NCBI RefSeq assembly: GCF_004323735.1
Contig: NZ_CP036455.1
Span: 4,583,101-4,647,100, forward strand
DNA: 64,000 nt
Source of the DNA: Streptomonospora litoralis
GTDB lineage: Bacteria; Actinomycetota; Actinomycetes; Streptosporangiales; Streptosporangiaceae
Reading direction: 5' to 3'
Shown: positions 2,917 to 39,511 of the stretch, piece after piece
How the letters are laid out: every line of letters begins with the position of its first letter
Numbering within the stretch: position 1 is the first letter of the stretch
Program-made: the position numbers and the translations under genes
Notes under the pieces: generated by a model
What the model saw: the letters and a program-made list of their open reading frames with translations, nothing else
What the model was told of the DNA's origin: nothing
The model's database searches: none

Positions 2917-5055
2917 ATGAAGCCGCTCGACCCCCGCCTGGTGCGCACGGCACGCGCGGTCCGGGTGCACCTGGCCGTCACGGTACTGACGGGCGCGGCC
3001 GTGACCGGGTTCGTCCTGGCGCAGGCGTGGCTGCTGGCGCACGTCATCTCGGGCGCGGCGGCCGGAATGGGCGCCGACGAGCTTGGGTGGGCGATCACCG
3101 CGGTCGCGCTCGTGGCGCTCGCCCGCGCCGCCATGGCCTACGGGGCCGAAACGGCTGCGCTGCGGTCGGCGGCCAAGGCCAAGTCCCAGCTGCGCAGGCG
3201 CCTGGTCGCGCACGTGACCGGGACAGGCGGCGGAAACGGCAACGACTCCCCCGGACCCGCGCGGTCCGCGGGGGCGGAGGCGGTCTGGTTGTCAGGGCAG
3301 GCCGGCTCCGATGAGGGGACGAGCACGCCGCGCGCCGGTGAGTTGGTCACACTCGCCACTCGTGGCCTCGACGCGCTGGATGACTACTTCGCCCGGTATC
3401 TCCCGCAGCTGGTGCTGGCGGTGCTCGTCCCCGCCGCCGTCCTCGTCGTCGTGGCGGGCGCGGACTGGATCTCCGCGGTCGTCATCGCGGTCACCCTGCC
3501 GCTCATCCCGCTGTTCATGGCCCTGGTCGGCTGGCACACCCAGGCCCGCACGCAACGGCAGTGGCGGCTGCTGAACCGCCTGGGCGGCCACTTCCTGGAC
3601 GTGGTGGAAGGCCTGCCGACACTGGCGATCTTCCGCCGAGCCAAGGCGCAGGCGGCCATCATCCGGCGCATCACCGACGAGCACCGGCGCACCACCATGG
3701 CGACGCTGCGGGTCGCCTTCCTGTCGGCGTTCGTCCTGGAGCTGCTGTCGACGCTCGCGGTGGCGCTGGTGGCCGTGGAGATCGGCATCCGGCTGATGTA
3801 CGGGATGCTGGACTTCCAGACCGCCCTGCTGGTGCTGATCCTGGCCCCGGAGGCCTACCTGCCGCTGCGGGAGGTGGGATCGCGCTTCCACGCCAGCATG
3901 GAGGGAGTGGCAGCAGCCGAGCAGGTGTTCACCGAGTTGGAGAGGCGCCGAGCGAGCGAAGTGGACACCGGCGACCCCGAAGGCGACACCCGGGGTCCGC
4001 GCAGCCGAGCGAGAAGCCGAACACTCCCAACCAACACCGAGTTGGAGAGGCGCCGAGCGAGCGAAGTGGACACCGGCGACCCCGAAGGCGACACCCGGGG
4101 TCCGCGCAGCCGAGCGAGAAGCCGAACACTCCCAACCAACACCGAGTTGGAGAGGCGCCGAGCGAGCGAAGTGGACACCGGCGACCCCGAAGGCGACACC
4201 CGGGGTCCGCGCAGCCGAGCGAGAAGCCGAACACTCCCGACCAACACCGAGTTGGAGAGGCGCCGAGCGAGCGAAGTGGACCCCGGCGACCCCGAAGGCG
4301 ACACCGAATCGCCGCGAGCGTACGGCGCCGCCTGGATACGCCTGGAAGACGTCCGGCTGGTCTATCCCGGAAGGGATGTGCCCGCGCTCGACGGCGTCGA
4401 CCTGCTGATCTCACCCGGGCGGTCGGTCCTCCTCGTCGGGCCGAGCGGATCCGGAAAGAGTTCGCTGCTGTCGCTCCTCCTCCGGTTCGCCGCGCCCTCG
4501 TCGGGCCGCATCGTGGTGCGCGGCGCCGGGGACGAGGACGCCGCCGAGGCGGCGGACCATCCGGATGCGGATGCCGACTGGGCCGCGCTGGAGGACGTTC
4601 CCGCGGACGAGTGGCGCCGGCGGATCGCGTGGGTACCGCAGTCGCCCTACCTCTTCGACGACAGCGTCGCCGACAACATCCGCCTCGGCGCGCCCGACGC
4701 GGATATCGCCGAGGTCCGGCGGGCCGCCGAACGCGCCGAGGCCGACGGCTTCATCCGCGCCCTGCCCGACGGCTACGAGACCCGGCTGGGCGAGCGGGGT
4801 GCCCGCCTATCCGCGGGTCAGCGGCAGCGCATCGCCGTCGCACGCGCCTTCCTGCGGGATGCGCCGATCGTGCTGCTGGACGAACCGACGGCCCACCTCG
4901 ACCCGGACAACGCCGCCGCTGTCCGCACCGCCGTCACGCGGCTGCTGCGCGGCCGCACAGGCGTCGTCGTGGCCCACGACGCCCGTTGGGCCGACGCCGT
5001 GGACGAAGTGGTGCCGGTTCGCGGCGGACGTGTCGAAGCGGGGGTGACCCGATGA
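2917..5055 (+). CDS. cydD: Heterodimeric ABC exporter CydD (thiol exporter for cytochrome bd assembly)
   Basis: CydDC exports glutathione or cysteine-type thiols and is needed to assemble cytochrome bd. The product (712 aa from ATG 2917, preceded by AGAGGA) has an N-terminal six-helix ABC exporter domain (about 1-335), an abnormal linker (about 339-463) and a C-terminal ATPase with Walker A GPSGSGKSS (about 508), signature LSAGQRQR (about 631) and Walker B VLLDEPTAHLDP. The linker is more than three copies of a 35-residue Arg/Glu-rich repeat specified by a 105-bp tandem DNA repeat; this makes the protein about 125 residues longer than expected. Frame and stop codons are intact. The reading frame continues upstream of 2917, but ATG 2917 has the ribosome-binding site. 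The stop overlaps the cydC start as ATGA. Confidence 0.93.
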   Translation: MKPLDPRLVRTARAVRVHLAVTVLTGAAVTGFVLAQAWLLAHVISGAAAGMGADELGWAITAVALVALARAAMAYGAETAALRSAAKAKSQLRRRLVAHVTGTGGGNGNDSPGPARSAGAEAVWLSGQAGSDEGTSTPRAGELVTLATRGLDALDDYFARYLPQLVLAVLVPAAVLVVVAGADWISAVVIAVTLPLIPLFMALVGWHTQARTQRQWRLLNRLGGHFLDVVEGLPTLAIFRRAKAQAAIIRRITDEHRRTTMATLRVAFLSAFVLELLSTLAVALVAVEIGIRLMYGMLDFQTALLVLILAPEAYLPLREVGSRFHASMEGVAAAEQVFTELERRRASEVDTGDPEGDTRGPRSRARSRTLPTNTELERRRASEVDTGDPEGDTRGPRSRARSRTLPTNTELERRRASEVDTGDPEGDTRGPRSRARSRTLPTNTELERRRASEVDPGDPEGDTESPRAYGAAWIRLEDVRLVYPGRDVPALDGVDLLISPGRSVLLVGPSGSGKSSLLSLLLRFAAPSSGRIVVRGAGDEDAAEAADHPDADADWAALEDVPADEWRRRIAWVPQSPYLFDDSVADNIRLGAPDADIAEVRRAAERAEADGFIRALPDGYETRLGERGARLSAGQRQRIAVARAFLRDAPIVLLDEPTAHLDPDNAAAVRTAVTRLLRGRTGVVVAHDARWADAVDEVVPVRGGRVEAGVTR
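3931..4305. repeat. 105-bp direct tandem repeat (about 3.6 copies) inside cydD
   Basis: Units begin at 3931, 4036, 4141 and 4246, exactly 105 bp (35 codons) apart. The fourth is truncated after about 60 bp. Copies are nearly identical: copy 3 has a G at 4239 where copies 1 and 2 have A, and copy 4 reads GTGGACCCC instead of GTGGACACC. Each full unit contains a 7-bp hairpin arm pair (GACCCCG / CGGGGTC). Because the unit is a multiple of three, copy number can change without breaking cydD. The repeat is also open in another plus-strand frame and on the minus strand. Confidence 0.97.
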
Positions 5056-6962
5056 ACAGCACCAAGGCATCCGGAGTTCCCGCGGGCGAGGCTGCCGCGG
5101 CGGCGCGGGATGGCGCGGCCGACACCGCGGCGGGTGTGCCGTCGTCCGCCGCGGGCGACACCCGCCCCGCCGCACCCGGCAGAGACCCGCTGTGGCGGAT
5201 GATCGCCCTCGCGCGGCCGCGCAGCACGCGTTTCGTGCTGGGCGTCGTGCTGGGCGCACTCGCCACGGGTTCGGGGGTGGCGCTGCTGAGTGTCGCCGCG
5301 TGGCTCATCGCGAAAGCTGCGGAGCACCCGCCCATCACGGCGTTGAGCGTCGCCGTGGTCGCCACCCGGGCACTGGGGATCTCCCGCGGCGTCACGCGGT
5401 ACCTGGAGCGACTGGTGACCCACGATGCGGCGTTCCGCACGTTGGCCGACGTGCGGGTCCGGGTCTACGAGCGGCTGGCGCGCACCGAACCGGTGCGCCG
5501 CTTCCGTTCCGGCGATCTGGTGTCGCGGCTGGTCAGCGACACCGATGCCACTCAGGATCTGTTGGTGCGCGGGCTGACACCGCCGCTCGCCGCGCTGCTC
5601 ACCGGGGGCGCGACCGTGCTCTTCGGCACGGTGCTGCTGGTGCCCGGCGGCCTGCTGCTGGGGACGGGGCTGGTCCTGGCGGGAGTGGCGGTTCCGCTGG
5701 TCGCGGCGGCGCTGGGGCGGCGGCCGGGCCGGCGCCAGGCGGACGCCCGCGGAGAGCTGTCGACGGCCTTGGTCGACACCCTCTACGGGGCACCGGATCT
5801 GGTCGCCTACGGTGCGATGGAGCGCGCCGTGCAGCGGGTGAACGACGCCGACGCCGAGCTGACACGCGTCGCCCGGCGCGACGCCGCCGTGCTGGGCTTC
5901 GGGGCGGGGGCGGCCTCGCTGATCACCGGCCTGACGGTGTGGGGGACGCTGCTGCTCGGGGTCACCGCGGTCCAGGGCGGCACGCTCAGCGCGATCTCGC
6001 TGGCCGTGCTGGTGCTGACGGCCCTGGCGGCGTTCGAGACCGTGGCGCCGCTGCCGGCGGTCGCGGCCCGGCTGGGCGCCATCCGCGCCGGCGGCGAACG
6101 CCTCTTCGGCATCCTGGACACGCCTCCCTCGGTCGCTGCCCCGGCCCGTGCGGACCGGCCGCTGCCCGAGCCCGCCGAGTCCGCCGGAACGACCGGCGCA
6201 GACCCCGACGGCGACGACGGCGCGGCGGGTGACGGGGACAGCGGGCTGCGCGTGCGCTCACTGCGGGTGCGCTACGCCCCCGACGAGCCCTGGGCCCTGA
6301 ACGGGGTGGACCTCGCCGTACCGCCGGGGCGAACCGTGGCCGTGGTGGGTCCGAGCGGCGCCGGGAAGAGCACGCTCGCCGCTGTGCTGCTGCGGTTCCG
6401 CGACCCCGACTCCGGGACGGTGGAGCTGCACGGCGCCGACATCACCGAGTACGCGGCCGACGAGGTCCGCGCCGCGGTCACGGGCGTACCGCAGGACCCG
6501 CACATCTTCGCGAGCACGGTGCGCGAGAACCTCCGGCTCGCCGCCGCCCCCGATGCGGACGACGAGCGGCTGTGGGAGGCGCTGGAGCGGGCACGGCTGG
6601 CGGACGAGGTGCGCGCGATGCCGGAGGGGCTCGGCACCGAGGTGGGCTCGCACGGTATGCGGCTGAGCGGCGGCATGCGGCAGCGGCTGGCGCTCGCCCG
6701 TGCGCTGCTGGCCGCACCGCGCGTGCTCGTGCTGGACGAGCCCACGGCGCATCTGGACCCGGACGCGCGCGACGCGGTCGTGGCGGATGTGCTGGCGGCG
6801 GCCGAGGGATACTCGACGCTGCTGATCACCCACGACCTGGCGGGCCTGGACCGGGTGGACGATGTCTACGTGGTCGCCGAGGGCGAGGTCGTCCAGCACG
6901 GCACGCACGAGGAGCTGTCGGCGGACGAGCAGGGGTGGTACGCGCGCGCACTGCGCGCATGA
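5052..6962 (+). CDS. cydC: Heterodimeric ABC exporter CydC
   Basis: Second half-transporter of CydDC. The 636-aa product starts at ATG 5052, overlapping the cydD stop by four bases. It has an Ala-rich N-terminal extension (about 45 residues), a six-helix membrane domain (about 50-330), an acidic linker, and a C-terminal ATPase with GPSGAGKST, signature LSGGMRQR and VLVLDEPTAHLDPDA. The order cydA-cydB-cydD-cydC is the usual actinobacterial operon, and this is its last recognisable gene. Unlike its CydD partner, CydC has no internal repeat. Confidence 0.95.
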   Translation: MNSTKASGVPAGEAAAAARDGAADTAAGVPSSAAGDTRPAAPGRDPLWRMIALARPRSTRFVLGVVLGALATGSGVALLSVAAWLIAKAAEHPPITALSVAVVATRALGISRGVTRYLERLVTHDAAFRTLADVRVRVYERLARTEPVRRFRSGDLVSRLVSDTDATQDLLVRGLTPPLAALLTGGATVLFGTVLLVPGGLLLGTGLVLAGVAVPLVAAALGRRPGRRQADARGELSTALVDTLYGAPDLVAYGAMERAVQRVNDADAELTRVARRDAAVLGFGAGAASLITGLTVWGTLLLGVTAVQGGTLSAISLAVLVLTALAAFETVAPLPAVAARLGAIRAGGERLFGILDTPPSVAAPARADRPLPEPAESAGTTGADPDGDDGAAGDGDSGLRVRSLRVRYAPDEPWALNGVDLAVPPGRTVAVVGPSGAGKSTLAAVLLRFRDPDSGTVELHGADITEYAADEVRAAVTGVPQDPHIFASTVRENLRLAAAPDADDERLWEALERARLADEVRAMPEGLGTEVGSHGMRLSGGMRQRLALARALLAAPRVLVLDEPTAHLDPDARDAVVADVLAAAEGYSTLLITHDLAGLDRVDDVYVVAEGEVVQHGTHEELSADEQGWYARALRA

Positions 6963-38242: not shown

Positions 38243-39511
38243 TCAGCAGCCGGAGACCTCCTCCCAGTGGCCGGGCTCGGTCTCACGCACGGAGCTGGTC
38301 ACGCCCAGGCTCCACAGGCCGAGGTCGTCTCCGCCGCCGACCGTGTAGGCGCGGCCCATGCGGTGCTCCGCCCGTCCGGCGGCGACATGGGCGTAGTTGC
38401 TCGCGGTCACGCACTCGCCCGGCTCCGGCGTGGGGTCGGGACTGGGTGTCGGCTCGGGCGTGGGGGTGGGATCGGGTGTCGGGTCGGGATCGGGGCCGGT
38501 GTCCGATCCGACGCCCAGGAAGTCGGCCGTGTACTGCGCCGAGCAGAGAGTGTCCAGGAAGTAGGCTCCCGCGCTGCCGCACCCGGCCGAGGGGTCGACG
38601 GGTGTTCCGTGGCCCATGCCCGAGACGGTGTTCAGCGCCACCACCGGCTCCCCGCCGGCGTCGTGGAACTCCGTGGTCGTGCCCGAGGGCCGCTGCTCGG
38701 TGCGGTTGGGACCGGTGGAGGCGCCGTGCACGTTCACCCACTGGTCGCGGGAGGCCTCGGCGTTGACGGGCCGCACCGTGTAGTCGGCCGAACCGTGCCA
38801 GATCTCCACGCGCGGCCACGGCCCGCTGTAGCCGGGGTTCTTCGCGCGGACCTCGTCACCCCACTGTTCGGCGCTCTGCTGCTTGCCGGAGTTCATGCAG
38901 GTGGTGGCCTCCAGCAGGCTGCCGGCGCAGCCGGTGGGCAGGCCGCCGACGATGCTGCCGCCGGCGAAGACCTCCGGGTAGGCCGAGAGCATCTCCGAGG
39001 CCATCGCGCCGCCCGCGGAGAGCCCTGAGACGTAGACGCCGCCGGTGGCGCCGTACTGTGCGGCCGCGTAGTCGATCATCTGCCGGATCGAGGCGGCCTC
39101 TCCGGATCCGCGGGCGGTGTCGCCGGGCTGGAACCAGTTGAAGCAGGAGTTCATGTTGTTGCCGCTGCGCTGCTGGGCGTAGACGAGTACGGCCCCGCGC
39201 TCGTCGGCGACCCCGTCCCAGCCGGAGTTGCCGTGGTAGCCGGTGGCGTTCTGCGTGCAGCCGTGCAGCAGCACGACCAGCGGCGCGCCCGAGCCGGCAC
39301 TGTCGGGGACGTAGGCGTACATGTCCAGGGCACCGGGATTGGCGCCGAATGAGGAGACCCGCTGCAGCGTCGCGGCCTCGGCGCGCGCGGTGTCCAGCGT
39401 GACCAGGCCGACCGCCGCGGCCAGTACGGCGAGCAGCGCGGCGAGGGCGGGCAGTGGAGAGGAGCGGAGTGGGGATGCGAAGGGGATGCGGTAGGAGAGC
39501 GGGCGGGGCAC
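38243..39511 (-). CDS. Secreted PHB depolymerase-family esterase
   Basis: 422-aa extracellular hydrolase. Signal peptide about 1-47 ending ARAEA; catalytic domain with oxyanion VVLLHGCTQNATGY, nucleophile GLSAGGAMASEML (Ser about 170), the WHGSADYTV aspartate region and a SGMGHGTPVD His. A Pro-Thr/Asp repeat linker (DPDPTPDPTPTPEPTPSPDP) then leads to a C-terminal domain of about 55 aa that probably anchors the enzyme to polymer or another surface. GTG 39511 has AAGGAGG. PHB depolymerase, acetylxylan esterase and feruloyl esterase share this fold; the divergent hydroxybutyrate-dehydrogenase gene favours polyhydroxyalkanoate. Confidence 0.87.
   Translation of the reverse strand: MPRPLSYRIPFASPLRSSPLPALAALLAVLAAAVGLVTLDTARAEAATLQRVSSFGANPGALDMYAYVPDSAGSGAPLVVLLHGCTQNATGYHGNSGWDGVADERGAVLVYAQQRSGNNMNSCFNWFQPGDTARGSGEAASIRQMIDYAAAQYGATGGVYVSGLSAGGAMASEMLSAYPEVFAGGSIVGGLPTGCAGSLLEATTCMNSGKQQSAEQWGDEVRAKNPGYSGPWPRVEIWHGSADYTVRPVNAEASRDQWVNVHGASTGPNRTEQRPSGTTTEFHDAGGEPVVALNTVSGMGHGTPVDPSAGCGSAGAYFLDTLCSAQYTADFLGVGSDTGPDPDPTPDPTPTPEPTPSPDPTPEPGECVTASNYAHVAAGRAEHRMGRAYTVGGGDDLGLWSLGVTSSVRETEPGHWEEVSGC

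Follow-up and report, generated by a model that had tools for sequence, protein, structure and literature searches.

Tandem array in the CydD linker of Streptomonospora as a probable in-frame capture of a dispersed palindromic element

The inter-domain linker of CydD in Streptomonospora litoralis is expanded by an in-frame tandem array whose 105-nt unit is a member of a family of dispersed, imperfectly palindromic elements of about 80–95 nt. We analyzed the array in a 64,000-nt stretch of this genome (referred to as the window) and in the genomes of relatives. Most likely, the array is a coding-captured and tandemly amplified copy of such an element, which otherwise usually occupies operon junctions, and is tolerated in CydD as a neutral spacer.

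The array and the CydD linker

The cyd genes of the window were assigned with Pfam and NCBIfam and all lie on the plus strand: cydA (cytochrome bd oxidase subunit I; 258–1787; PF01654, E 1.6e-163), cydB (cytochrome bd oxidase subunit II; 1800–2894; TIGR00203), cydD (thiol reductant ABC exporter subunit CydD; 2917–5055; TIGR02857) and cydC (the partner ABC subunit; 5052–6962; TIGR02868, 603 bits). CydD comprises 712 residues, and its identity is given by a TIGR02857 equivalog score of 660.5 bits against a cutoff of 435. The gene starts with ATG at 2917 and ends with the stop codon at 5053–5055, which is overlapped by the ATG of cydC (ATGA). The ABC_membrane match (PF00664; 3331–3840) and the ABC_tran match of the ATPase (PF00005; 4387–4893) correspond to residues 135–304 and 487–655, respectively, of a query starting at 2929.

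Tandem Repeats Finder, run on the window, yielded a repeat at 3930–4305 with a period of 105, 3.6 copies, 99% matches and a score of 738. It is in frame and lies between the two domain matches, as the sequence-only reading of this DNA had placed it. All units are on the plus strand. Unit 1 (3937–4041; LERRRASEVDTGDPEGDTRGPRSRARSRTLPTNTE) recurs exactly as unit 2 (4042–4146) and with one nucleotide difference as unit 3 (4147–4251); the last unit (4252–4305), which is truncated and lacks the 3′ arm of the hairpin, matches the others at 88% over the 60 nt compared. In unit 1 the hairpin core is formed by a 5′ arm at 3961–3971 that pairs with a 3′ arm at 3990–4000, and it recurs in units 2 and 3. 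The array contributes ∼125 residues, of which 27 are K/R and 28 are D/E, and one more plus frame and one minus frame are open across it; both the charged insertion of about 125 residues and the openness of the unit in several frames had been noted earlier. GC3 is 0.76 in the array versus 0.90 in the rest of cydD, and CGA accounts for 8.0% versus 0.5% of the codons. A separate 30-bp repeat (2.3 copies, 84% matches) is present in the window at 38420–38488.

An assembly artefact is an unlikely source of the array because the host assembly consists of two contigs and arrays occupy the identical site in five other assemblies. All six Streptomonospora genomes examined, including S. alba, S. mangrovi and S. 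sp. PA3, thus have the array in cydD. Together they hold 12 full units, every one exactly 105 nt long, in line with the proposal that a 35-codon unit is frame-neutral; copy number and linker length vary, and by our reading of the sequences the final unit is truncated in all six. Outside the genus, the unit is absent and the linker spans 19–46 residues in 25 of 25 measurable CydD orthologues. This outgroup sample was found by peptide patterns and consists of L053–L076 (L053 is an unplaced MAG) and L078; the count leaves out L077, whose linker was not measurable, and L079–L088, ten ATPase-only weak relatives that by identity are not CydD orthologues. An empty cydD site was found in none of the six Streptomonospora genomes, and it is therefore from the outgroup linkers that we infer an insertion. 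Since all six carry the array, the site was probably filled before the Streptomonospora genomes split and the genus radiated.

Five genomes contain two or more full units; the identity of these units was 0.97–1.00 in four of the genomes and 0.74 in S. mangrovi, whereas full units from different genomes averaged 0.79 (59 pairs). In S. alba, the core types of the two cydD units resemble different sister genomes. Judged from these comparisons, the near-identity of the units is the outcome of within-genome homogenisation or turnover and not of a single fresh duplication. The recent duplication put forward by the sequence-only reading accordingly stands as far as the units are near-identical within most genomes; as a purely recent expansion, which that reading held to fail if orthologues shared the repeat, it does not apply to the genus. 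The alignment of orthologues across the linker, also suggested there, separates Streptomonospora from the repeat-free outgroup and, with the array common to the whole genus sample, leaves no one-strain event. Differences in the CydD linker within Streptomonospora are likely a product of repeat turnover, not of adaptation, and strains could be typed at this locus.

Constraint on the encoded peptide was estimated as pN/pS, using uncorrected proportions and one unit (the first) per genome. The value was 0.93 for the whole unit (six genomes), and 0.31, 1.29 and 0.73 for its 5′ arm, core and 3′ arm, respectively; reference values were 0.07 over 150 codons of the membrane domain and 0.38 over 38 codons around Walker A. 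Synonymous divergence itself is low in the 5′ arm (pS 0.11 versus 0.31 in the membrane domain). All 18 cydD units encode the peptide LERRRAS without change, which together with the pN/pS of the 5′ arm could be a sign of peptide constraint; the RRRAS and RSRTL patterns of the unit resemble what we take to be basic kinase motifs. An AlphaFold2 model of CydD calculated with 29 orthologues had a mean pLDDT of 75.4 and a pTM of 0.49, and most of residues 352–463 of the 708-residue query fell below a pLDDT of 50; the linker is thus predicted to be disordered. Two roles had been suggested for the array before this work. Tuning of the CydDC linker finds no support in a whole-unit pN/pS this high and a linker modelled as disordered; a neutral repeat is the probable alternative, as there is little amino-acid constraint on the unit.

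Dispersed relatives of the cydD unit

BLASTN of the unit against its own genome gave short partial matches and no second full copy, and a distant BLASTN against plasmid records gave no match to the unit. Among 100 relatives, matches at E 1e-3 or better were obtained in 12 genomes. Six are Streptomonospora genomes matched at their cydD arrays, with one weak match elsewhere in G005; G025, which belongs to another genus of the same family, was matched at 2.0e-6 and 3.7e-6, both times outside the flanking genes by our reading; and G013, G035, G057, G072 and G077 had short partial matches. When one G025 copy was searched in turn against 60 relatives, eight genomes were matched: G000, G004 and G005 at their cydD arrays (1.5e-6 to 2.9e-6), G025 at the query itself and four more copies, and G010, G020, G006 and G063, the last two with matches that by reading look unlike the element. 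An exact two-arm pattern matched four of 150 genomes, namely at the cydD arrays of three species and at one intergenic copy of G025, and its reversed version, used as a control, matched none of the 150. A short motif was dropped, as it and its reversed control each matched two genomes (of 60 searched with the motif).

We built a covariance model, denoted R1, from four cydD units and 12 dispersed copies; its matches in cydD arise by construction because cydD units were part of the training. In a survey of the family, with at most 23 candidates scored per genome, R1 matched at least 80 of 200 genomes at E 1e-3 or better, in at least 31 of 68 genera. A deeper search of eight genomes chosen for high counts gave 16–51 matches in each, and in the class 37 of 394 genomes were matched at 1e-5, including members of three further families. 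Dispersed relatives on this scale favour the suggestion of the sequence-only reading that the unit is an insertion-type palindromic repeat lodged in a permissive loop. The genome-wide search for the unit that it had called for had a divided outcome: BLASTN found no second full copy, and R1 found one confident copy outside cydD in the S. litoralis genome (L130:1501–1595). This copy sits between genes that we take to be nuoM and nuoN, and its place in S. alba (L135) is occupied by three tandem copies (2.9 copies of a 99-nt unit). Searches of Rfam with 12 loci returned nothing above the gathering score on the element, the two sub-threshold matches both lying off it. In open-licence papers, no description of this element family was found among the matches listed, which is weak evidence of absence.

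Several further copies were observed. Diverged copies are present at 1501–1593 of L139 and L140 in two Streptomonospora genomes, just upstream of a gene presumed to be atpB, and one G025 copy (L037) lies at a junction that we assume to be pntA–pntB; by these gene readings, respiratory operons (nuo, cyd, atpB, pntA–pntB) recur among the element sites. G002 contains three arrays of related, more diverged units that R1 matches weakly: L146:1516–1959 (102-nt period, 4.4 copies), L280:1488–2049 (102-nt period, 5.5 copies) and L281:1503–1857 (100-nt period, 3.5 copies), with 96–98% matches within the arrays. The low-scoring, weak copies are L139, L140, L142, L145, L146, L147, L280, L281 and L282. 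At L123/L124 (G010:C8:20639–20728), shortened tandem copies have arms that by reading seem fused, as if the hairpin core had been deleted.

Of the 18 cydD units, 11 entered the hairpin analysis; copies that were identical or nearly so were excluded, as was the truncated last unit in each of four genomes. In G000, G002 and G004 this truncated unit has no 3′ arm and hence no stem. In the 11 distinct full units, which come from six genomes and were aligned with MAFFT without fitting to a structure, an 11-pair stem had 92.5% of its cells paired, so that the hairpin core noticed earlier is confirmed. Two-sided changes (A-U/G-C, C-G/U-A, G-C/C-G) occurred at four of the 11 pairs, and two-sided cells numbered 16 versus 6.7 in shuffles; the count of pairs with such changes lay within the shuffles, 59 of 500 reaching four. 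The same holds for a second small alignment, where 134 of 500 shuffles reached the count, and likewise for the number of further pair types in the small alignments. Across 105 distinct elements including the training sequences, 13 of 15 pairs showed two-sided changes and 95.3% of the cells were paired. For 73 distinct elements from places outside the training of the model, no member of which is identical to any training row, the figures were 12 of 15 pairs and 94.9% of cells, and two-sided cells numbered 126 versus 38.8 in shuffles. Both of these larger alignments were fitted to the R1 structure, which favours pairing, and slid controls fell to 27–42%. The outer inverted arms were paired in 78.6% (105 elements) and 76.3% (73 elements) of the cells, and single-sequence fold energy was ordinary for the composition (z −1.0 to −1.1). 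On these alignments, what is conserved across the family appears to be a nucleic-acid hairpin, with conserved arms and a palindromic core that changes by compensation, and not one peptide.

The genomic placement of the copies was assessed at 142 loci (82 + 60) comprising 145 arrays, 144 after removal of one duplicate and 138 outside cydD; because these loci are the higher-scoring matches among those listed, the proportions describe strong copies. Flanking coding frames were called by openness and GC3, and the sense frame was taken where both strands qualified. An upstream sense gene was callable in 95 arrays, and in 89 of them its stop codon lay ≤45 nt from the 5′ end of the element; the remaining six comprise two genes that read through (L213 and L230) and four with stops further in or beyond. 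At the other end, a downstream sense gene was callable in 108 arrays, and in 48 of them the match finishes, in frame, with the three bases of that gene's start codon. Antisense coding only was seen upstream in six arrays and downstream in seven, and the first 76 arrays include 8 with an ambiguous strand upstream and 19 with one downstream. Of 135 non-redundant loci outside cydD, 109 have a TGA close to the 5′ end, compared with 26 of 135 random stretches. ATGA or GTGA forms the end of 55 of the loci, and in 29 of the 55 the frame that terminates at this TGA runs uninterrupted through the entire last unit. Tandem arrangement is found in 44 of the 138 non-cydD arrays, and the 63 tandem spacings outside cydD, unlike those in cydD, show no preference for multiples of three (remainders 2/1/0 = 25/19/19). 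The notion that the element is open in all sense frames was rejected (10 of 94 distinct non-cydD elements versus 27% of shuffles); sense frames of the dispersed elements carry more stops than shuffles, and on the antisense strand 91 of the 94 have no stop in any of the three frames.

In-frame capture outside cydD is rare, amounting to the two read-through cases among the 95 callable arrays. At L213, the element is in frame inside an MGH1-like glycoside hydrolase (PF22422) that is present in four of five genomes of its genus; of the three other orthologues, two are without the insert and the third differs in sequence at this place. At L230, it lies in frame in a Hydantoinase_B protein (PF02538, 654.8 bits), where 32 residues (88–119 of the query) stand against two (773–774) in the solved homologue 7hk5 chain A. 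Elements also reach protein ends: three 90-nt units form the C-terminal extension of a protein at L195, whose gene is presumably recO, and the element forms the C-terminal tail of a protein at L151, from a gene that we take to be carA. By reading, the frames relative to the conserved arm are three different ones in cydD, in L213/L230 and in L195, and therefore no single peptide is conserved.

Origin of the array

The explanation that we favour starts from an element that elsewhere in Actinomycetes typically resides between co-directional genes, starting near one stop codon and often ending on the next start. The ancestor of Streptomonospora may have gained a copy, presumably by mobility, in the cydD linker, one that happened to be stop-free in the relevant frame. 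This captured copy would then have been amplified, by whatever route, at a 105-nt (35-codon) pitch, and units would have been gained, lost and homogenised in each lineage, which would give them their freshly duplicated look. The resulting charged, disordered peptide is probably tolerated in CydD as a longer spacer, and the lack of in-frame stops, the frame neutrality and the location in a disordered linker may be why the array has persisted.

Other explanations account for parts of the data. A functional linker module, in which selection keeps several charged 35-residue copies that adjust the distance between domains, the binding of a partner or a modification site, would fit the exact frame of the array in all six genomes, the invariant LERRRAS and the low pN/pS of the 5′ arm. 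We regard it as unlikely: pN/pS rises above 1 in the core and is close to 1 over the whole unit, copy number and linker length vary in a segment modelled as disordered, the captures in other genes are, by our reading, translated in different frames, and conservation in the 5′ arm extends to its synonymous sites, which points to the nucleic acid. That last feature would in turn suit structured RNA in the cydD mRNA, whose hairpins might slow ribosomes between the domains or set mRNA processing, as would a hairpin with compensatory changes conserved inside an ORF and the less common codons of the array, CGA among them. Against this proposal, to which we give little credence, the fold energy is ordinary for the composition and the hairpin is also conserved in intergenic copies, so that the biology of the element itself may account for this conservation. 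It is very improbable that the array is a plain coding minisatellite, that is, a native stretch of linker duplicated by slippage and unrelated to the dispersed elements, given that intergenic elements of other genera, and one intergenic copy in the same genome, match the unit in both arms and in the spaced core, that the unit is missing from all 25 outgroup linkers and that the hairpin has undergone compensatory changes; the invariable 105-nt pitch at variable copy number and the lack of a second full BLAST copy in the genome are what such a minisatellite would explain.

Relation to known repeat systems

Capture and amplification of a dispersed element, as favoured here, can be set beside several described systems, and the likeness drawn here to mycobacterial interspersed repetitive units (MIRUs) and Rickettsia palindromic elements (RPEs) is one of described features and position. 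MIRUs are described as carrying an ORF with a stop codon that shares the sequence ATGA with the start of the next gene (PMC12548453), and repeats that end at a start codon are described in PMC2734929. The present elements are similarly short, dispersed repeats, often tandem, at start codons, and resemble MIRUs in part in that some hold an ORF with an ATGA overlap onto the downstream start (the 29 open cases among the 55 loci ending in ATGA or GTGA). This stop/start placement is a feature of the dispersed relatives; the cydD array itself lies inside a gene. The elements differ from MIRUs in occurring in other genera, in their full-length covarying palindrome and in their in-frame capture within genes.

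A bolder joint reading, which taken as a whole we hold to be rather unlikely, is that an apparently undescribed self-complementary family spreads through Actinomycete operons. It would insert at stop/start overlaps and occasionally enter genes in frame, and some elements would carry their own coupling ORF, sparing downstream expression; the cydD array would stand, with hairpins maintained by selection or by a copying mechanism, and MIRUs may be the mycobacterial branch of the family. If this were true, a single element would have simultaneous effects on DNA, on mRNA and on the length of a protein linker.

REPs, according to PMC3733652, measure 20–40 bp and are extragenic. Like REP/BIME and MITEs, the present elements are dispersed palindromic repeats without genes of their own; unlike REPs, they are longer (about 80–95 nt) and are also found inside genes. 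With coding VNTRs or minisatellites, the cydD array shares a tandem, frame-preserving arrangement, homogenisation within genomes and a variable copy number, and it differs from them in that its unit belongs to a dispersed family of structured elements. A further parallel for the array is provided by the RPEs, which PMC2229807, PMC10969869 and PMC3767692 describe as palindromic dispersed elements of about 100–150 bp, both intergenic and in frame in unrelated protein genes. The present family is likewise palindromic and dispersed, and is found in frame within unrelated genes (cydD, the MGH1-like glycoside hydrolase and Hydantoinase_B). It departs from the RPEs in its Actinomycete hosts, the rarity of capture, the tandem amplification at a coding site and the preference for stop/start junctions.

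The covariance model and the 138 located non-cydD arrays provide a resource for following element movement, hairpin persistence and the transition from repeat to protein. A route from palindromic repeat DNA to protein sequence, of the Rickettsia type, would now be seen in Actinomycetes and tied to an operon-junction repeat family that is placed like MIRUs. Taken together, these comparisons are best read by analogy as a cydD array that works like an RPE insertion and whose relatives sit like MIRUs.
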